A DNA stretch of 64,000 nucleotides from Bacteroidia bacterium. Its GTDB lineage: Bacteria > Bacteroidota > Bacteroidia > Bacteroidales > Paludibacteraceae. How positions within the stretch are numbered: the first letter of the stretch is position 1; every line of letters starts with the position of its first letter. Positions 2,148-11,424 of this stretch are shown here, piece by piece. The notes below the pieces were generated by a model that saw only the letters and a list, made by a program, of their open reading frames with translations, had not been told where the DNA came from and did no database searches. The stretch spans positions 1 to 64,000 of the forward strand of contig SAAO01000022.1 of NCBI GenBank assembly GCA_009929375.1. Reading direction: 5' to 3'. Position numbers and translations under genes: made by a program.

Positions 2148-2870
2148 CGTCGAACGTGTGCGAAGCTAAATGCTTTGTATAGCATATCTGTTTGGGCGTG
2201 GCAGGGATGCCAATTGTAATCGAATAATTGTATTTCAGAAGTGACTGGCCTTGCTAATGTAGGTAACTATTCGTTACAGGTATTAGTAAGGCTTTGTCGT
2301 TTAATTTAGCGCAAAGAAAATCTCTTACTGATGTGGCATCATCCCGTCGACCCTGCGCCATGCCTGCCGCTTTAAATAGCATATCTTTTTGGTCGGATAT
2401 ACTCACAACGACCAGTACCCTTCAATACTTTGTTCAATTTGTCCTTTTTGCTTATTTCCCTATAATTTTTATTGCAGAATCAGGATTTACACTTGTGCAG
2501 AATCAGGATTTACACCAATCGAAAAATGAAAAATTGAATTTAACTTTGACAGCGAATTCAGATTGTTTCTTATTCCTGTTTTTGCAGTGTGAGATTTTCT
2601 GATTCAAAGTCACTAAATATAGGTATATCTTTTTGAGTCGTATGCTCTGCCTGAAAATGTTTTCAATCGGAAAATAATCTGTTACTTTGGCAAAAGCCTT
2701 TGGTTCGGGTGCGAAGGCTGAAATACGATATAGTGCGGTTTATCAGGCAGTGGTGGCGAACAAGTTGGGGTTTTAAAATTGATATGGGAAACTAAAATGT
2801 AAAATATATGATTAAAACTACTCTTTTTTTCGAACAAGGATTTGTAAAATTAAACTCAGGAGGTATTACA

Positions 2871-4097
2871 ATGAAAAAACTTATTTTATTCGCGGCAATT
2901 ATGATTTGCTCTGTAAATTTAGCCAATGCGCAAACAAAAGGCGTAAATGTAGCTTTGAACAAGCCTGCTACTGCAAGTGCTTCAACCACTTCTGAGATTC
3001 CGGCTTATGCTTTTGATGCTGACATAAATACCAACTGGTGTGCACCGGGATATGATGGTTGGCTTAAGGTGGATTTGCAAGACAAATATTTAGTTGACAG
3101 TATTAAATTGTATGTCAACCAGGCAAACACAGGTAACTCTGTTCACGAAATTAAAGTCTCAAACGACTTTGAAAATTGGACAATTGTTGAAACATTATCA
3201 GGCATTACCACCAACGGACAGATTCTGACCGTAAAATTCGACGAACCATTGCTAAATGTGAGGGGTGTGATGATAAATACCACAAGTTCAACTGCATGGG
3301 TCGCATGGGCCGAAGTCGAAGTATATTCAATCGCCACACCTTCACCGGAAACCAATCTGCTTGCAAATGCCGGTGCCGAAAGCGAGTACGAAGCCTGGAC
3401 AAAAATCGATGATGGTGATGGTTGGGGTATTAATACAGTTGAATTGGGTTTAACGGGAATTCCACACAGCGGTGATAAATTTTGGGTCTCATCTTACTTT
3501 AATTGTACACTTAGTCAAACGATCGACTTGTTGGCTGCTGGTTTTAAAGAGTCGCAGCTTGATGCATCGCCTAATATAAAGGTTGGAGCATTTGTGGCTG
3601 CAAATTCGAGAACAGGTTCTTTCGCAACAATCAAACTTGAGTTGCTCGATGCAAATGACGATGTACTTTCCACGCATTATGTTTGTAATGACTTAAATAT
3701 TCTTGTAAATACTCCGTGGACAGAAAAATCGCTCATTGTGAGCAACTATGGCACTGGTGTAAGAAAACTTAAATACTATTTAATTGGAAGAGATGACCGG
3801 ATCTGGGGTGGGCATTTCGGAACACAATTCGACGATGCATTTGTGTATGTAGGGGCATCAATATCAACCGGTATTAATGACGGCACAAGCAAATCAATAT
3901 CTGTTTCGCCTAATCCTGCAAGCGACTTTATCAATATGGGAGAATATAGTGGATCAATTAAAATTTACGACATGAAAGGAAGTTTGGTATTCTCGCACAA
4001 TGCTTCTGTAAATGAACGTATAGATATTAGTTCGCTACAAAATGGAGTTTATGTGTTAAGAACAACAACGGAAAATTTCAAACTCATTAAAAAGTAA
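2871..4097 (+). CDS. Secreted discoidin (F5/8 type C) plus FBA-like protein with T9SS sorting domain, 408 aa
   Basis: Residues 1-20 are a signal peptide (KKLILFAAIM core, cleavage near ANA-Q). Residues 25-153 look like a discoidin/F5-8 type C carbohydrate-binding domain (NVALNKPATASAS start, AYAFDADINTNWCAPG, WLKVDL). Residues 162-328 resemble the F-box-associated (FBA) domain of eukaryotic Fbs glycoprotein-binding F-box proteins: NLLANAGAE, DGDGWGI, SSYFNC, QTIDLLAAGF, YGTGVRKLKYYL, HFGTQFDDAFVYV. Residues 337-408 are a type-A T9SS sorting domain (SVSPNPASDF...NGVYVLRT...KLIKK). The ATG at 2871 is chosen because AGGAGG precedes it and it starts the signal peptide; an upstream in-frame ATG at 2808 lacks both merits. 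There is no catalytic domain, so a glycan or glycoprotein binder at the cell surface is inferred. A hairpin follows the stop. Confidence 0.8.
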   Translation: MKKLILFAAIMICSVNLANAQTKGVNVALNKPATASASTTSEIPAYAFDADINTNWCAPGYDGWLKVDLQDKYLVDSIKLYVNQANTGNSVHEIKVSNDFENWTIVETLSGITTNGQILTVKFDEPLLNVRGVMINTTSSTAWVAWAEVEVYSIATPSPETNLLANAGAESEYEAWTKIDDGDGWGINTVELGLTGIPHSGDKFWVSSYFNCTLSQTIDLLAAGFKESQLDASPNIKVGAFVAANSRTGSFATIKLELLDANDDVLSTHYVCNDLNILVNTPWTEKSLIVSNYGTGVRKLKYYLIGRDDRIWGGHFGTQFDDAFVYVGASISTGINDGTSKSISVSPNPASDFINMGEYSGSIKIYDMKGSLVFSHNASVNERIDISSLQNGVYVLRTTTENFKLIKK

Positions 4098-4215: not shown

Positions 4216-5973
4216 TCAATAACCTCTTTCGGTATAAGTAGTGTGTAGCAAATGATGCGACAGATGGCCGAGTGGTTCTTTCAGAAAATGCTCATACAGA
4301 TACAGAATTTCCGGATTTTCGTGCGATTTTCGTAATCCCTTGTGCGCATCTTCGTAATAGATGGAATCAGCTCTGAATTTTCGCACTTCTGCATTGGTGG
4401 GGATAGGTTGTCCGCCGCCTCCCAGACAGCCTCCTGGACAGGTCATGACCTCGATAAAGGCATAAGGCGATTCACCTTTTTCAATCTGTTCCAGCAGAAT
4501 GCGTGCGTTTTTCAGGGTGTGAGCCACTGCCACCTTAATTTTGGTTCCGCTGAGATCTACTTCCGCTTCGCGAATACCTTCCATGCCACGCACGGCTCTG
4601 AAGTTTATATCGCTTAATGTTTTTCCGGTGTAAACTTCGTAGGCGGTGCGCAGTGCAGCTTCCATTACGCCTCCTGTGGCTCCGAAAATCACTGCTGCAC
4701 CCGTAGAAGTGCCCAGCGGATTGTCGAATTCCTCTACTGGTAAATGACTAAAATCGACACCTGTTTCGCGGAACATACGCGATAGCTCGCGGGTGGTAAG
4801 TACCGCATCCACATCGAAGAAACGGTCGTTTTCGGTCAGGCTCAGTTTGTCCTTCCAGTATTCGAAAGCGCCATCCATCTCGGGACGTTTGGCTTCGTAC
4901 TTTTTAGCCGTGCAGGGCATTACCGAGACTACCACTATGTTGCGCGGATCGAGTCCTGTTTTTTCTGCATAATATGTTTTAGCTACAGCGCCAAACATTT
5001 GTTGCGGCGATTTACAGGTGGATAAATGTCCCAGCGAAGCCGGAAAGAAATGTTCGATAAACTTTATCCATCCGGGCGAACATGAAGTAATCATAGGAAG
5101 CTTTCCGCCGGTTTTAATGCGGTTCAACAGTTCGTTTCCTTCCTCAATAATGGTAAGGTCGGCTGTGAAGTTTGTGTCGAAAACCTTCGAGAAACCCAGT
5201 CGGCGAAGTCCTGCCACCATTTTTCCGGTAACTAAACTGCCCGCAGCCATGCCCATTGCTTCGCCTATGCCTACACGTATGGCGGGAGCAGTTTGCACAA
5301 TTACTGTTTTTGCAGGGTTGTGAATGGCGTCCCACACTTCCGAAACCGAACTTTTCTCTGTAATAGCGCCTGTAGGGCAAACCAAAGCACATTGTCCGCA
5401 ATTGGTGCAGGCCACGCTGCCCATTGGCATATCCAGATAAGTGGCAATATGTGTTTTTACGCCACGTCCGGCAAAGTCAATGGCTTTTACAGTTTGCATT
5501 TCACTGCATACAGCCACACAACGGCCACAGAGTATGCACTTCTCCGGGTCGCGAACGAGCGAAAGCGAACTGACATCCTTTTTCAAAACTTGCTTACGGG
5601 TGCGAACAAAACGTTTGTCGGTAATGCCCATTTCGTAGGTGATGGTTTGCAATTCGCAGTTCAGGTTGCGGTCGCAGCCCAGACAATCCTGCGGATGATT
5701 GGCCAGCAACAGTTCGGTATTGATGCGGCGCGCGGTGGCAATCCGTTCGTTGTGCGTGGTGATTTCCATGCCTTCGGTCACTGTAGTGATGCACGAACGC
5801 AACAGCGAACGGGCTCCTTTTACCTCGACCACACAAATACCGCAGGATGCATTTGTCGATACATCTTTGAGGAAGCAAAGTGTGGGAATACGAATACCCG
5901 CTGTCTGACAGGCCTGAAGAATGGTTTGACCTTCGGCCACATCGTATGATTGGTTGTTGATTGTAATTTTCAT
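4216..5973 (-). CDS. hydA: [FeFe] hydrogenase catalytic subunit HydA (585 aa)
   Basis: Catalytic subunit of a cytoplasmic multimeric [FeFe] hydrogenase, 2H+ + 2e- = H2. Domain order: [2Fe-2S] ferredoxin fold (C33, C44, C47, C61); His-Cys3 [4Fe-4S] (H93, C97, C100, C106); two [4Fe-4S] ferredoxin motifs (C146/149/152/156 and C189/192/195/199); H-cluster domain with TSCSPGW (296-302), MPCTAKKYE (352-360) and TCPGGCLGGGG (511-521); C-terminal small-subunit segment (DSIYYEDAHKGLRKSH). The H-cluster cysteines C298, C354, C512 and C516 are present. The usual proton-relay cysteine of TSCCP is Ser299 here. It starts 18 nt after hydB stops, as last gene of the hydC-hydB-hydA operon. The HydEFG maturases are not in the window. 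Confidence 0.96.
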   Translation of the reverse strand: MKITINNQSYDVAEGQTILQACQTAGIRIPTLCFLKDVSTNASCGICVVEVKGARSLLRSCITTVTEGMEITTHNERIATARRINTELLLANHPQDCLGCDRNLNCELQTITYEMGITDKRFVRTRKQVLKKDVSSLSLVRDPEKCILCGRCVAVCSEMQTVKAIDFAGRGVKTHIATYLDMPMGSVACTNCGQCALVCPTGAITEKSSVSEVWDAIHNPAKTVIVQTAPAIRVGIGEAMGMAAGSLVTGKMVAGLRRLGFSKVFDTNFTADLTIIEEGNELLNRIKTGGKLPMITSCSPGWIKFIEHFFPASLGHLSTCKSPQQMFGAVAKTYYAEKTGLDPRNIVVVSVMPCTAKKYEAKRPEMDGAFEYWKDKLSLTENDRFFDVDAVLTTRELSRMFRETGVDFSHLPVEEFDNPLGTSTGAAVIFGATGGVMEAALRTAYEVYTGKTLSDINFRAVRGMEGIREAEVDLSGTKIKVAVAHTLKNARILLEQIEKGESPYAFIEVMTCPGGCLGGGGQPIPTNAEVRKFRADSIYYEDAHKGLRKSHENPEILYLYEHFLKEPLGHLSHHLLHTTYTERGY

Positions 5974-5991
5974 GATTGTAGATTTTTCAGG

Positions 5992-8900
5992 TTAATAGCA
6001 TTTTACATCGCAACGCAGGCAACGGCCTACTTCATGACGTGCCTGTTCTCCTGTATAACCACATTCCACTTCGTGGAAATTGCCCACGCGTTCACCCACA
6101 GCCAGTTTGTACGATTTGTTTTTCGGACTGCGTTTCGGGTTTTGCGGCACATTGTCGTGGTATTCGAATTCGCGGAACAAATGGTGGAAGCGTTCTTCCT
6201 GCATAAGTTCGTAATCGATTACTTCGGCTGCTTTTCGTGCCATTCCCATTGCTTCGGCAGCTGTGGAAGGTCCTGTAACCGCATCGCCACCTGCATAAAC
6301 GCCCGGTATACCGGTGCTGAAACTGAAGGCATTTACAATCACACGGCCATCGGGGGTTGTTTCTATTTTATGTTTTTGTAAAGCTGCTGAATCCACCCGT
6401 TCGCCCACAGCCAAAACCACTGAATCACAGTTTATAATTTCGTATTTCCCTGTGGCTATTGGCTTACGTCGTCCGGAGTTATCGATACCTCCGCATTGCA
6501 TTTTTTCAATTTTCAGACCTTTTACAGTACCGTTTTCGCGTGTCAGAATTTCCACCGGGGCTGACATAAACCGGAATTTGATTCGTTCGGCTTCCGATTC
6601 CAAAATTTCAATTTTGTTGGCCGGCATATCGCATTTATCGCGGCGATATACTACAGTGACTTCCTTGCCCAGTCTCCACAGGCTTCGGGCTGCATCGATA
6701 GCCACATTTCCTGCGCCTATCACCAAAACCTTTTGTCCGGTTTTGGGCGTTTTGCCCATTGCCAGTTCTTTCAGTAAATCGGTTCCGGCAAATACTCCTT
6801 CAGCTTTTTCACCCGGAATGTCGAGGTCGATGTCTTTCCATGCGCCAATGGCAATGTACACAGCATCATTATCTTTTTTCAGTTTATCAAGCGAAAGATT
6901 CTGTCCTAGTTTTTGTTTGAATTTAAACTGTACGCCCAGCTTTTTGATCAGGGCAATTTCTTTGCGGAGTACATTCAACGGAAGTCTGTATTGTGGAATT
7001 CCGTAGCGTAACACACCGCCTGCTTCGTCGTAAGCTTCGTAAATGGTTACATTATGTCCCAAACGTACCAGATAAAATGCAGCTGTTAGTCCGGCAGGAC
7101 CTGAACCCACAATGGCGATATTTTTTCCTGTTTTCGGGAGTTTTTCTTTTATCAGTTTTGTGTAAATGTCGTTTTCCTTACCGAGTTTGTACATGGTGTC
7201 GGCTAAGTAGCGATGAATTTCGCCTTGCGAAACCGGCTCGTCGAGTTGCTCACGGCGACAACGCATCTGGCAGTGGAAGTGGCAAATACGTCCGATGGTT
7301 CCGGGCAACGGATTATCGCGCAATGTAAGCTCAAATGCTTCTTCGATACGATCTTCCTTTATCAGTTCAATATAACCCGGAATATTCATATGCATCGGGC
7401 AGCTGTTTTCGCAAAGTGCCATGTACAGCTTTTCGCAAACTCCGGCATGACAGCGTTTTTCGATGATATGTTCTTCGTACTCGTGTCGGAAATAACGTAA
7501 AGTGGTCAGAATTGGATTCGGAGCTGTTTGTCCCAGTCCGCAAATGGCTGTGTCCTTAATGGTTTTTCCGAGCAGTTCGAGCATGGTCAGGTCGGCATTT
7601 GTGCCTTTTCCTTCGGTAATGCGTTTCAGAATGGCCAATGCCTGTGCCAGACCTTCGCGGCAGGGAGTGCATTTTCCGCAGGATTCGCCGGAATTAAATT
7701 CCAGAAAATAGCGGGCTACATCCACCATGCAATTATCCTGATCCATGACCACCATTCCACCTGAACCCATAATGGCGCCCAGGGATGCCAGCGACTCATA
7801 ATCAACCGGTGTGTTGAAATGTTCGAGCGGAATGCAGCCACCCGACGGACCGCCGGTTTGCACAGCTTTTACCTTTTTATTTGTTCCTGTTCCTTCGCCA
7901 ATATCAAAAATGAAATGATTGAGCGTGGAGCCGAGTGGAAGTTCAACCAAACCTGTGTTTTTTATTTTTCCTACCAACGAAAATACCTTTGTTCCGGGGC
8001 TTTTTTCAGTGCCAGTGGTGCGAAACCATTCGCCACCTTTTTCAATTATTGCGGGTACATTGCACCATGTTTCCACATTGTTGATATTGGTGGGTTTGCC
8101 ATAAAGCCCGTAGTCGGCAGGGTAGGGCGGGCGAGGTTTTGGTCGACCTGCATTTCCTTCGATAGAAGCTATCAAAGCTGTTTCTTCGCCACAGACAAAT
8201 GCACCGGCACCTTCCACCACACTCAAATGAAAACTGAATTCGCTTCCCAAGATGTTTTTGCCCATCAATCCGAGTTCAGTAGCCTGTTCGATAGCCATTT
8301 TCAATCTTTTTACGGCCAACGGATATTCGGCCCGCACATAGGCAATTCCTTCGGAAGCACCCATGGCATAAGCACCCAACATCATACCCTCGATAAGCGA
8401 ATGCGGATCGCTTTCAATTTCGTTGCGGTTCATGTATGCTCCGGGATCGCCTTCGTCGGCATTGCAGATTATGTATTTCTGATCGGCTTTTTTATCATGC
8501 ATAATCTGCCATTTTCGTGCAGTGGGGAAGCCTGCACCTCCGCGACCACGTAAATTAGCATTTGTAACTTCCGAAATGATATTTTCAGGACTTTCGAGTG
8601 TGAGTGCTTTGGCCAAAGCTCTGTAGCCACCTATGCCGATATAATCTTCAATTGATTCCGGATTAATGAGTCCGGCATTGCGAAGCACAATCTTCTTCTG
8701 ACCTTTGAAGAAAGGAATTTCATCCCAATGCGGAATGTCTTCATATTCTTTTCCGAATTCAAATTTCGTTGTTAAATGATCCCACTCGTCGATACGGCAA
8801 AGGATTTTCTTTTTGTAAACGTTACCGTTTTCAATGCTTTCTATTATGGGCAACAGGTCTTTTTCTTCAACTCTATTATAAATCAATAAAGGTTTTCCGG

Positions 8901-9123
8901 ATTGATAAACCGTTACAAGTGGCTCTTCGGCGCAAAAACCAAAACAACCCACCGGTTTCAGCAGAAACTTATTGTTGGTTTGCAGGCGAAGCAACGACTG
9001 AAACAGTTGGTCGGCACCATTTCCAATACCACAGGTTCCCATGCCCACCATAATCATAGGTTTGTCAGGTATAATGCGTTCGCGGTTCAGTGTGTGAAGT
9101 GAATATAATGTGTTGGTGTCCAT
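5992..9123 (-). CDS. hydB: HydB-type NuoF subunit fused to an NfnB/GltD-type NAD(P)H flavoprotein (1043 aa)
   Basis: Flavin and Fe-S subunit of the hydrogenase complex. Residues 20-100 form a thioredoxin-like [2Fe-2S] domain (C31, then GCFGFC 59-64). Residues 140-550 are NuoF/HydB: GRGGAGFP (193-200), NADEGDPGAY (221-230) for FMN/NAD(H), and a [4Fe-4S] site CGKCTPC (482-488) plus C528. At CHAGVC (558-563), where HydB proteins normally continue into a two-[4Fe-4S] ferredoxin tail, the sequence instead enters a GltD/NfnB-like module. It has C571/C575 and C614/C618/C622 cysteines, a FAD site GSGPAG (673-678), a dinucleotide site GAGNVAIDAARS (803-814) with YRR (826-828) suited to NADPH, and GGD (945-947). 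The end carries RCLRCDVKC. The junction is continuous with no frameshift. Fusion of NADH and NADPH modules recalls the Stn transhydrogenase of Sporomusa. The coupling mode is inferred. Confidence 0.93.
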   Translation of the reverse strand: MDTNTLYSLHTLNRERIIPDKPMIMVGMGTCGIGNGADQLFQSLLRLQTNNKFLLKPVGCFGFCAEEPLVTVYQSGKPLLIYNRVEEKDLLPIIESIENGNVYKKKILCRIDEWDHLTTKFEFGKEYEDIPHWDEIPFFKGQKKIVLRNAGLINPESIEDYIGIGGYRALAKALTLESPENIISEVTNANLRGRGGAGFPTARKWQIMHDKKADQKYIICNADEGDPGAYMNRNEIESDPHSLIEGMMLGAYAMGASEGIAYVRAEYPLAVKRLKMAIEQATELGLMGKNILGSEFSFHLSVVEGAGAFVCGEETALIASIEGNAGRPKPRPPYPADYGLYGKPTNINNVETWCNVPAIIEKGGEWFRTTGTEKSPGTKVFSLVGKIKNTGLVELPLGSTLNHFIFDIGEGTGTNKKVKAVQTGGPSGGCIPLEHFNTPVDYESLASLGAIMGSGGMVVMDQDNCMVDVARYFLEFNSGESCGKCTPCREGLAQALAILKRITEGKGTNADLTMLELLGKTIKDTAICGLGQTAPNPILTTLRYFRHEYEEHIIEKRCHAGVCEKLYMALCENSCPMHMNIPGYIELIKEDRIEEAFELTLRDNPLPGTIGRICHFHCQMRCRREQLDEPVSQGEIHRYLADTMYKLGKENDIYTKLIKEKLPKTGKNIAIVGSGPAGLTAAFYLVRLGHNVTIYEAYDEAGGVLRYGIPQYRLPLNVLRKEIALIKKLGVQFKFKQKLGQNLSLDKLKKDNDAVYIAIGAWKDIDLDIPGEKAEGVFAGTDLLKELAMGKTPKTGQKVLVIGAGNVAIDAARSLWRLGKEVTVVYRRDKCDMPANKIEILESEAERIKFRFMSAPVEILTRENGTVKGLKIEKMQCGGIDNSGRRKPIATGKYEIINCDSVVLAVGERVDSAALQKHKIETTPDGRVIVNAFSFSTGIPGVYAGGDAVTGPSTAAEAMGMARKAAEVIDYELMQEERFHHLFREFEYHDNVPQNPKRSPKNKSYKLAVGERVGNFHEVECGYTGEQARHEVGRCLRCDVKCY

Positions 9124-9165
9124 TGCGATAGATTTAAAGGTTCAACAATGTAAAGGAAAAAACTG

Positions 9166-9669
9166 CTATTTCAGCTTTTTGAGAATGCGGATAAGCTTCT
9201 GTGTGTTTACATGGCTGTGAATTTTCCCGTCCACAGCGACAACAGGTGCCTGTGCGCATTGTCCGAAACAGGCTACGGTACGAATGGTGAATTCATTGTC
9301 GGGAGTGGTGAATGAAGCTTCGTCGTCGGTGTCGGGATACCTGAACCCGAGAATCTGTGCCACTTCACCCAAAAGTGCTTTTGAGCCTTTGGTGTGACAT
9401 GCAGTGCCACGACAAACCACAATGCTGTGTCGTCCCTGAGGTTGCAGATTGAAAAACGAGTAGAAAGTAGCCACGCTGTAAACCTGAGTATATGGCACAT
9501 GCAGTTTTTGAGCCACTTCGGTAAGTGTTTCGGGCGGGAGATACTTGAAACGGTTGGCTTCCTGGGCTTCTTCGAGTGTGGTAAGCAGTCGTCCGTGTAC
9601 GTTTTTGTGCCTTTCGACAATTTCATCGAGCACTGCCCCGCTAATGTGGGTGGTACGGGTTTTTTCCAT
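9166..9669 (-). CDS. hydC: HydC/NuoE-like [2Fe-2S] subunit (167 aa)
   Basis: Small [2Fe-2S] subunit of the hydrogenase complex, homologous to the 24-kDa NuoE subunit of complex I. A helical N-terminal part (PPETLTEVAQKL, YSVATFYSFF) is followed by a thioredoxin-like fold with the four ligands C86 and C91 (CRGTAC) and C134 and C138 (CFGQC), the standard C-x4-C...C-x3-C pattern. Length is normal for HydC. It is the first gene of the operon, 42 nt ahead of the hydB fusion. In bifurcating hydrogenases HydC relays electrons close to the HydB flavin. No Shine-Dalgarno sequence is visible; the leader is about 100 nt if the TATATTTG box at 9781-9788 is used. Confidence 0.94.
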   Translation of the reverse strand: MEKTRTTHISGAVLDEIVERHKNVHGRLLTTLEEAQEANRFKYLPPETLTEVAQKLHVPYTQVYSVATFYSFFNLQPQGRHSIVVCRGTACHTKGSKALLGEVAQILGFRYPDTDDEASFTTPDNEFTIRTVACFGQCAQAPVVAVDGKIHSHVNTQKLIRILKKLK

Positions 9670-10110: not shown

Positions 10111-11424
10111 TTATCGGGCTATCACCTTCTCAACAGATGTGTAATTACCTGTTTGATATTGAATAATGTAAGCACCGGGCTTTAATGGTTGCATCTGAAT
10201 TTTTCCGGAACTTGTTTCCGGATATGCTTTGTAGATCATACGTCCGCTAATGTCGGATATGCTGATTCTGTTGATTATTGAAGGCGATTTAAACGTAAGC
10301 AGATCTCCATTCAGATTAAAAGAAGCATTCGCGCGAATGTTATTGATGTCTGTGTTGAAATCGATGCTCACACCGGGCATGGTCATGTGCATTCCTTCCA
10401 TTTGACTTACAATTTGCCAGCAATCGGATTTGCTCATTAGTCTGTAAGGCGTTTTGGACGGATCGAGCGTAGCCGAAATACGAAAAGAGGCATTGTTGCT
10501 GAGCGATTGCACATTGGTAATGGCGACCGGGTTGTAATCGACATCGGTAAGCTCAAGTTCGTTGGCTGTGAGGCCTGAAAGCTGTTTGTACAAATAGAGA
10601 TTGAAGCCTGTTTGGTCAGCGTTTGAAGTGTAGGAATTGTTCGAAACCAGATTTGGCCACGACGAAATAATCTGAGCCATTCCGCCTGCCTGGGTTTCGT
10701 CGCCTGTGGCTCTGAGGGCAAGTTTGTAGCCGGCATCGGCAATGGTAGTGGTATAAGTCAGTCCGGTGGCACCTTCAATAGGTGTCATATCGTAAGTAAG
10801 CGGATTGACTCTGAACCATTGGTAGCTTAAATGTCCTTCAACATCAGTGTCATCGGATAGCTTTTTGACTGTAAATGAGGCTTCGAGACCACGTCCGATA
10901 TTTGGAGCCATGATGCCGGTGATAGCCATGCTTTCATCGAGTCCCCAGCCTGCAAAACGGGTGTCGATACCTGAAAGTTCAGCCATCACTTCATTTGAGG
11001 TAAATCCATCCTTTGGTCCGCCATTTGCCCTGAGCCGAAATGTGTAGGAAGCATCGGGCGACAGACTGAAATTATCTCCGGTAAGCGTAAGATCTTCGTA
11101 ATAATGCTGATAGTTGCTCCACGATTGCCCGTTGTTAGCCGAAATCTGAACAGTGTAACTGTTAGCTCCAATAGTGCTTGGTTCGGGAAATTCCATATCG
11201 ACTGTAGGCCGGCTGCCGCTTCCGGCAAACATACCATTGCTACGGTGCGAGTATTTCAGAAATAGTCCGCCAATTTTTCCTTCGGATTGTGTGAACTGTG
11301 GAAATGCTGGTAAAGTGCCACCTTCACCGGGAGTAAACTGTGCATAAGCAGGGATAATGAGCAGAATGCTCAGTACAGTAATCAGAGCTTTTTTTTGTAA
11401 GAAGTAGTTGTGTTTCATGACCAT
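10111..11424 (-). CDS. Secreted T9SS-cargo protein of unknown function (437 aa)
   Basis: I do not recognise a specific family. The N-terminus is a clear signal peptide (KKALITVLSILLIIPAYAQ). ATG codons at 11424 and 11418 are both possible starts. The central part contains fibronectin/Ig-like beta-sandwich patterns (SYTVQISANNGQSW, SYTFRLRANGG, YQWFRVNP, YKLALRATGDETQAGG). The last 70 residues are a type-A T9SS sorting domain (RISISDISGRMIYKAY, LKPGAYIIQYQTG, final EKVIAR). Export across the outer membrane and surface attachment or release are therefore inferred. No catalytic motif is visible. It is monocistronic, with nadC ending upstream at 11602 and the hydrogenase region downstream. Confidence 0.8.
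   Translation of the reverse strand: MVMKHNYFLQKKALITVLSILLIIPAYAQFTPGEGGTLPAFPQFTQSEGKIGGLFLKYSHRSNGMFAGSGSRPTVDMEFPEPSTIGANSYTVQISANNGQSWSNYQHYYEDLTLTGDNFSLSPDASYTFRLRANGGPKDGFTSNEVMAELSGIDTRFAGWGLDESMAITGIMAPNIGRGLEASFTVKKLSDDTDVEGHLSYQWFRVNPLTYDMTPIEGATGLTYTTTIADAGYKLALRATGDETQAGGMAQIISSWPNLVSNNSYTSNADQTGFNLYLYKQLSGLTANELELTDVDYNPVAITNVQSLSNNASFRISATLDPSKTPYRLMSKSDCWQIVSQMEGMHMTMPGVSIDFNTDINNIRANASFNLNGDLLTFKSPSIINRISISDISGRMIYKAYPETSSGKIQMQPLKPGAYIIQYQTGNYTSVEKVIAR

Follow-up and report, generated by a model that had tools for sequence, protein, structure and literature searches.

An [FeFe]-hydrogenase operon of Paludibacteraceae in which HydB carries a GltD/NfnB-type module in place of its ferredoxin domain

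The soluble HydABC hydrogenases of T. maritima, A. woodii and T. kivui combine HydA, HydC and a HydB that is built on a flavin mononucleotide (FMN) core with the cluster B1, a hinge and a two-[4Fe-4S] ferredoxin domain. The Bfu family has been defined by a conserved BfuBC core with the clusters B1-B5 and C1 (Schut 2022, PMC9304861). In the Stn/Nfn-Bfu enzymes (StnABC; NfnABC of T. sibiricus and C. saccharolyticus), which contain no hydrogenase, a bifurcating B-C core is joined by a GltD module with a C-terminal RCLxC tail; the module is fused to subunit A, on the third-substrate side, and StnB retains the ferredoxin domain (PMC10482914). NfnAB has the same NADP(H)-module fold with two [4Fe-4S] clusters and flavin adenine dinucleotide (FAD), and the tail stands at the N-terminus of NfnL. 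The closest described relative is the sub-type I BfuABC of Hydrogenedentota and relatives, in which B3 and B4 of BfuB are replaced by a DPD_II and a C-terminal FAD/NAD(P) domain and bfuA lacks the C-terminal A5 domain (Zheng & Huang 2024, PMC11406978). Here we analysed a hydC-hydB-hydA operon in positions 1 to 64,000 of contig SAAO01000022.1 (assembly GCA_009929375.1) of a Bacteroidia bacterium from the Paludibacteraceae, a 64-kb stretch referred to as the window, in which the 1043-amino-acid HydB continues into a complete GltD/NfnB-type module.

The operon was matched to the sub-type I BfuABC by architecture only: Pfam places DPD_II and the FAD/NAD(P) domain instead of B3/B4, HydA likewise lacks the A5 domain, and, unlike some sub-type I loci, which carry an extra bfuD (PMC11406978), no additional gene lies between hydC, hydB and hydA. 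The fusion has thus been in print since 2024 and is not new. In the available portions of PMC11406978, Bacteroidota are not named in sub-type I, the hinge and the histidine position described below are not discussed, the word NADP does not occur and NADP(H) is not considered as a substrate. Our literature searches found no biochemical study of the fusion and no description of it other than PMC11406978; the available portions of PMC6349859 and PMC6085437 do not describe it. What is new here is that the hinge and the mapped bifurcation residues are invariant in 88/88 fused sequences although the ferredoxin domain is gone, and that histidine stands at the eighth cluster-ligand position of the module in 85/88. 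The observation is thus confirmed, its first interpretation partly supported and its architecture published; the function is proposed here from sequence.

Pfam divides the fused HydB into Complex1_51K (NuoF FMN domain, residues 186-357), NADH_4Fe-4S (NuoF iron-sulphur domain, 468-552), Fer4_20 (DPD_II, 559-646) and Pyr_redox_2 (two-Rossmann oxidoreductase, 668-962). Among the 25 NCBIfam models listed, NuoF models reached up to 468 bits and GltD-type models up to 463 bits, none of them above its own cut-off, and the best structures for the core were the NiFe-HydB 7t2r_B (659 bits) and 9n5u_B (645 bits). The motifs SCGKCTPC (481-488), CHAGVC (558-563), GSGPAG (673-678), GAGNVA (803-808) and YRR (826-828) are all present, so that the intact NuoF core up to CHAGVC, as first annotated, is borne out by residues and Pfam alike. 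We take Cys31, 60 and 64 to be ligands of the N-terminal thioredoxin-like [2Fe-2S] cluster and Cys482, 485, 488 and 528 those of the B1 [4Fe-4S] cluster, both assigned by motif. Conservation was scored in 88 fused sequences, namely the window and 87 of 90 loci (L005-L014, L034-L113), since a full-span filter dropped L013, L063 and L089. All listed cysteines and histidines of the core were invariant in this alignment except Cys31 (86/88).

The hinge, placed by aligning HydB to 7t2r, consists here of Cys465, His552, Cys558 and Cys563 (88/88), and a fifth A. mobile HydB residue, C476, corresponds to Thr503, which is threonine in 76/88. Feng reportedly named this HydB site the B2 [2Fe-2S] cluster. 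The same name is used by Schut 2022, where the A. mobile ligands are C438, H525, C531 and C536, the counterparts of the four residues given above (PMC9304861), and Furlan 2022 assigned the site as zinc and termed it a hinge (PMC9499530). The hinge histidine is missing from non-bifurcating HydB homologues (PMC9304861), and three residue marks of bifurcating beta subunits, Ala/Met, Gly-Gly-Pro-Ser-Gly and Phe, were given by Losey 2020 (PMC7311640). Ala229/Met231 and Gly-Gly-Pro-Ser-Gly 424-428, placed by motif with an equal numbering offset for both, are invariant in 88/88; the column of the third mark (Phe, T. maritima position 367) is not fixed, the candidates being Phe309 and Phe381 (88/88) and Phe367 (81/88). 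By Ala/Met, Gly-Gly-Pro-Ser-Gly and the hinge histidine, the fused protein appears to hold an otherwise ordinary HydABC core of the bifurcating type.

The part that follows the hinge is different. In 20/20 canonical HydB rows the last 110 residues contain two CxxCxxCxxxC motifs; in 29/29 fused rows of the histidine type the sequence beyond the hinge contains none, which bears out the proposed replacement of the ferredoxin tail. IPR017896, which we take to be a ferredoxin-type domain, is listed in the definition of the Bfu family. B1, the B2 hinge with its histidine and the mapped bifurcating-type core residues are present as that definition asks (PMC9304861); B3 and B4 are lacking from the fused proteins, with Fer4_20 in their place by Pfam. 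Under the strict definition the fused protein falls outside the Bfu family, although it is expected to function as a member would.

The first cysteine of the module lies eight residues past the last cysteine of the hinge. Module cysteines 571, 575, 614, 618, 622, 1035 and 1038 are invariant in 88/88, as are the glycines of the FAD site and YRR, so the module was described correctly as having its own cysteine clusters, FAD site and dinucleotide site. Since two [4Fe-4S] clusters require eight ligands and seven cysteines are kept, we examined the position of the eighth. The column holds His (His637 in the window) in 85/88 fused sequences and Lys in L011, L012 and L014; L013, outside the 88, has Lys as well. 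The ligand of the FAD-proximal cluster is Lys170 in StnC and Glu at the same place in NfnB (PMC10482914). In our alignment His637 shares a column with StnC K170, which is Glu in Pf NfnL and in the NfnB of the window's own genome. Among nine further proteins of the GltD type, taken from the search matches and including L116, whose alignment is doubtful at this column, six have Lys, three Glu and none His; among four PDB chains, three have Lys and one Glu. From its position, His637 is predicted to be a cluster ligand.

The tail of the module (residues 1007-1041) aligns, at a weak 17 bits, with residues 14-48 of P. furiosus NfnL. It is permuted relative to NfnL, where it is N-terminal; as in StnC, it follows the module directly and places RCLxC at the C-terminal end. 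An AlphaFold2 single-chain model of the fused HydB from 56 sequences had a mean predicted local distance difference test score of 87.6 and a predicted template modelling (TM) score of 0.78. Foldseek matched one part of the model to chain B of C. saccharolyticus NfnABC (target TM 0.95) and to HydB structures, and the other to NfnABC chain A, StnC and NfnL (5jca_L, target TM 0.83, root-mean-square deviation 1.5). The suggested analogy with Stn holds for the parts and fails for the wiring: GltD sits on B and not on a NuoG-like A, the ferredoxin domain is lost, A is a hydrogenase, and the proximal-ligand position is His, not the Lys of Stn/Nfn-Bfu. NfnAB differs in having Glu at that position, and the operon here contains no NfnA.

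A one-genome-per-species collection was scanned with patterns drawn from the fused protein itself, which biases the retained set towards fusions; of 183 relatives the best 80 were retained (L034-L113), mostly metagenome bins. The best frame crosses the junction in 80/80 loci, including L063 and L089, which are partial at contig ends, and the window itself has no stop codon or frameshift there. By record title the loci comprise 53 Bacteroidota, 11 Spirochaetota, 7 Ignavibacteriota, 5 Omnitrophota, 1 FCPU426 and 3 unplaced. The three genes lie on one strand in 75/80 loci, the others (L036, L042, L063, L086, L089) being cut by contig ends; in L086 the HydA match is a different, upstream gene. hydC precedes the fused hydB in 79/80, and the remaining locus, L063, begins within hydB. 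A full-length fusion occurs in 11/395 genomes drawn from the window's phylum, its own genome counted. Among 150 genomes of its family, 17 have the fusion in one frame, one more has it split across two contigs and one has it in part. Of the relatives that carry a name, a Paludibacter bin comes nearest (80% identity).

Quick maximum-likelihood trees included 29 of the 85 fusions of the His type and four of the Lys type, together with canonical, stand-alone and solved proteins. The His-type fusions form one clade in the core tree and in the module tree (Shimodaira-Hasegawa-like approximate likelihood ratio support 100 in both). We thus regard an assembly chimera or a two-gene read-through as refuted and its probability as negligible; the identical in-frame junction in several phyla and the clade support argue against it, and nothing was found in its favour. 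The Lys-type fusions (L011-L014) are separate from the main clade in both trees. A repeated origin of the fusion is not claimed, as a single origin was not rejected (approximately unbiased test, p 0.128 for the core and 0.558 for the module) and for the module the constrained single-origin tree was slightly better than the unconstrained one. At one Lys-type locus (L014; L138:6660-13002), the fused HydB-GltD is accompanied by a 225-amino-acid A subunit without the H-cluster part and by a protein with a Glu_synthase domain (PF01645, E 1.6e-15), apparently a non-hydrogenase relative.

With the bifurcating core unchanged and the arm changed, the simplest reading is that the low-potential partner has changed from ferredoxin to NADP(H). 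In this reading, which we judge evenly balanced between right and wrong, the operon encodes a soluble HydABC-type [FeFe]-hydrogenase in whose HydB the mobile, ferredoxin-reducing C-terminal domain has given way, at the B2/zinc hinge, to a complete module of NADP(H) site, FAD and two [4Fe-4S] clusters. Electrons from H2 would pass through the HydA clusters and B1 to FMN, the NAD(H) site and branch point, and onward through HydC/B2, one [4Fe-4S] cluster and the His637-ligated [4Fe-4S] cluster to FAD and NADP(H). FAD would act as a plain converter between two-electron and one-electron transfer, similar to that of StnC, and not as a second bifurcating flavin. The net reaction would be reversible, NADH + NADPH + 2 H+ <=> 2 H2 + NAD+ + NADP+, and would probably run towards hydrogen during fermentation. 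In vivo, NADPH has a potential of about -370 mV and NADH of about -280 mV, and by our own arithmetic that of H2 is near -296 mV at 10 Pa. Because of these values it is plausible that at low H2 NADH and NADPH jointly can drive H2 formation, NADH alone falling just short. More tentatively, as a proposal somewhat likelier to fail than to hold, we suggest an [FeFe]-hydrogenase that bifurcates or confurcates without ferredoxin, uses NAD(H) and NADP(H) as its two carriers, has a His-ligated [4Fe-4S] cluster beside FAD and is present in at least five phyla. The hinge and His637 results make this proposal sharp and testable.

The genome offers ferredoxin other outlets. It also encodes a canonical HydABC, whose 624-amino-acid HydB ends in two CxxCxxCxxxC motifs, an NfnAB pair on contig C92 and a GltD beside the end of a GltB (identified by eye), RnfC and pyruvate:ferredoxin oxidoreductase, so that ferredoxin is served elsewhere; PntB was not found in this genome. 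Contig C60 (L003) encodes a third hydrogenase-type protein, which scores as a monomeric [FeFe]-hydrogenase of group B1 (502.8 bits, cut-off 450). Fifteen members of the family carry the fusion at 70% identity or above; in 5 of them there is a further HydB-like match whose end, at 567-575, is like that of canonical ones. Furthermore, when the 278-amino-acid NfnA of the genome was sought in 46 genomes (E <= 1e-30), relatives were found in 26/27 fused-bearing genomes, its own included, and in 18/19 others. Nothing thus points to the fusion as a substitute for Nfn, and no gap is visible for the transhydrogenase role that had been suggested.

Several points weigh against NADP(H) as the low-potential partner of a working hydrogenase. 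YRR, first annotated as favouring NADPH, is typical of NADP(H)-binding relatives and supports likely NADP(H) use, but StnC, Pf NfnL and the NfnA chains 9bov_A and 9n5u_A have it too; it is therefore no discriminating mark inside this family and does not prove a preference for NADP over NAD. In NfnB this fold passes electrons to ferredoxin by way of its two [4Fe-4S] clusters and, by analogy, ferredoxin could dock on the module. In S. wolfei HydABC, loss of B3/B4 accompanies loss of bifurcation (cited in PMC11406978). Moreover, HydG was not found in the window's own genome (99.98% complete), nor HydF above the cut-off, which leaves the H-cluster, and hence H2 itself, unsecured for this organism; within the window, HydE, HydF and HydG queries gave no match. 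HydG was above the cut-off in 10/27 fused-bearing genomes: in 5/21 presumed to be of the His type, against 14/19 of those that hold the canonical loci L015-L033 (Fisher p 0.0037, not corrected for relatedness), in 5/5 presumed Lys-type genomes (G482 and G437 assigned by identity alone) and in 0/1 for G172, where the H-cluster part is missing from the A subunit. Thus 16/21 His-type genomes are without HydG above the cut-off. HydF was above the cut-off in 5/19 genomes, the same five that have HydG. Five canonical genomes are also without HydG, including the single-contig G132, which has a HydF gene (TIGR03918, 428 bits) upstream of its canonical hydCBA (L136:8802-10007). In flanks of up to 8 kb, hydG-F-E adjoin the fused operon on the opposite strand in 3/80 loci (L047, L052, L069), where they speak for a true hydrogenase, and a HydG-like stretch stands at the locus edge of L071. 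Missing contigs, another maturation route and borrowed ligands are open candidate reasons for the HydG-less genomes. Genomes with [FeFe]-hydrogenase and without HydG are touched on in PMC9431212; the available portion of PMC12578642 does not address them.

If ferredoxin docked on the outer [4Fe-4S] cluster of the module, as in NfnB, the enzyme would couple H2, ferredoxin, NAD(H) and NADP(H), as the first-pass annotation of the window had proposed. The homology of the module to NfnL over its length (5jca_L, 315 bits), with both cluster sites kept, would fit this, as would the segment CPMHMNIPGY, which is closer to NfnL than to StnC. However, the HydB ferredoxin domain is gone in every His-type fused row examined and the proximal ligand position is His, not Glu, so that we consider such a four-couple complex unlikely; of the original proposal NADP(H) use stays likely, and ferredoxin coupling is weakened. 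Zheng & Huang 2024 suggested that the FAD gained by the replacement might serve as a second bifurcating centre, of the canonical kind, alongside FMN-FeS (PMC11406978). Arg713, at the position of NfnB R201 and StnC R239, is present in 88/88 and could be read in that sense, but the same arginine occurs in StnC, whose FAD does not bifurcate (PMC10482914), the Glu of NfnB is replaced by His, and the operon has no NfnA-like gene, although the NfnA relative encoded elsewhere in the genome could act in trans. We regard a second bifurcating flavin as very improbable. A soluble hydrogen-linked transhydrogenase that exchanges NAD(H) and NADP(H) independently, without bifurcation, would agree with the Syntrophomonas wolfei precedent; the marks of bifurcating HydB (hinge His, Ala/Met, Gly-Gly-Pro-Ser-Gly), kept throughout the 88 sequences, speak against it, and it appears quite unlikely. 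Exchange of the ferredoxin partner for NADP(H) is therefore the reading we favour.

The mechanism of HydABC bifurcation is a matter of dispute that centres on what the swinging C-terminal domain does. The fused clade amounts to a natural experiment in which this domain has been exchanged and the remainder left unchanged. Continued coupling of two carriers by the enzyme would mean that the arm is a modular port and that bifurcation resides in FMN, HydC and the hinge. If the proposal is true, fermenters would have a route from NADPH to H2 without ferredoxin, and redox models of anaerobic communities would change.

The features of the operon are collected in Table 1. As annotated at first, the genes are in tight order, with gaps of 42 bases between hydC and hydB and 18 bases between hydB and hydA. 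HydA of the window belongs to NCBIfam FeFe_hydrog_A6 (group A6; 872.9 bits, cut-off 765), and its nearest structures are those of T. kivui (8a6t_A, 615 bits) and A. woodii (7q4v_A, 614 bits). Among the 68 full-length HydA from the 80 loci, H-cluster motifs 1 and 2 are present in 68/68 and motif 3 exactly as written in 60/68; by these motifs the A subunit is of the [FeFe]-hydrogenase HydABC type.

Table 1. Positions of the operon genes and of parts of the fused HydB in the window
Feature	Position	Strand	Description
hydC	9166..9669	(-)	167-amino-acid thioredoxin-like [2Fe-2S] subunit (HydC/NuoE/BfuC); Pfam 2Fe-2S_thioredx E 1.5e-41
hydB-gltD fused	5992..9123	(-)	1043 amino acids; Pfam domains, AlphaFold model
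HydB residues 1-563	7435..9123	(-)	N-terminal thioredoxin-like [2Fe-2S], FMN/NADH core, B1, B2/zinc hinge
HydB residues 564-1043	5995..7434	(-)	GltD/NfnB module: two [4Fe-4S] sites, FAD site 673-678, dinucleotide site 803-828
His637 codon	7213..7215	(-)	predicted ligand of the FAD-proximal [4Fe-4S]
hydA	4216..5973	(-)	585-amino-acid [FeFe]-hydrogenase catalytic subunit; motifs 1-3 (TSCSPGW, MPCTAKK, CPGGC) all intact

Apparent secreted proteins (by eye) are encoded on either side of the operon, at 2808-4097 (+) and 10111-11424 (-). Among the neighbours of hydCBA (up to four genes on the upstream side and three on the downstream side), no gene family was found in more than 12 of the 79 hydC-bearing loci. 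By eye, a second set of hydC-like, NuoF-like (about 406 amino acids) and hydA-like genes lies near the fused operon in L038, L067, L079, L082, L086 and L091, and single members of this set recur in up to eight loci. In L050, L054, L056, L059, L060 and L061, three recurring genes follow hydA, encoding a 147-amino-acid DRTGG-like protein (by eye), a 159-amino-acid anti-sigma-type ATPase (by eye) and a 475-amino-acid protein weakly similar to [FeFe]-hydrogenase (123 bits to TIGR04105, under the cut-off), perhaps together an H2 sensor set.

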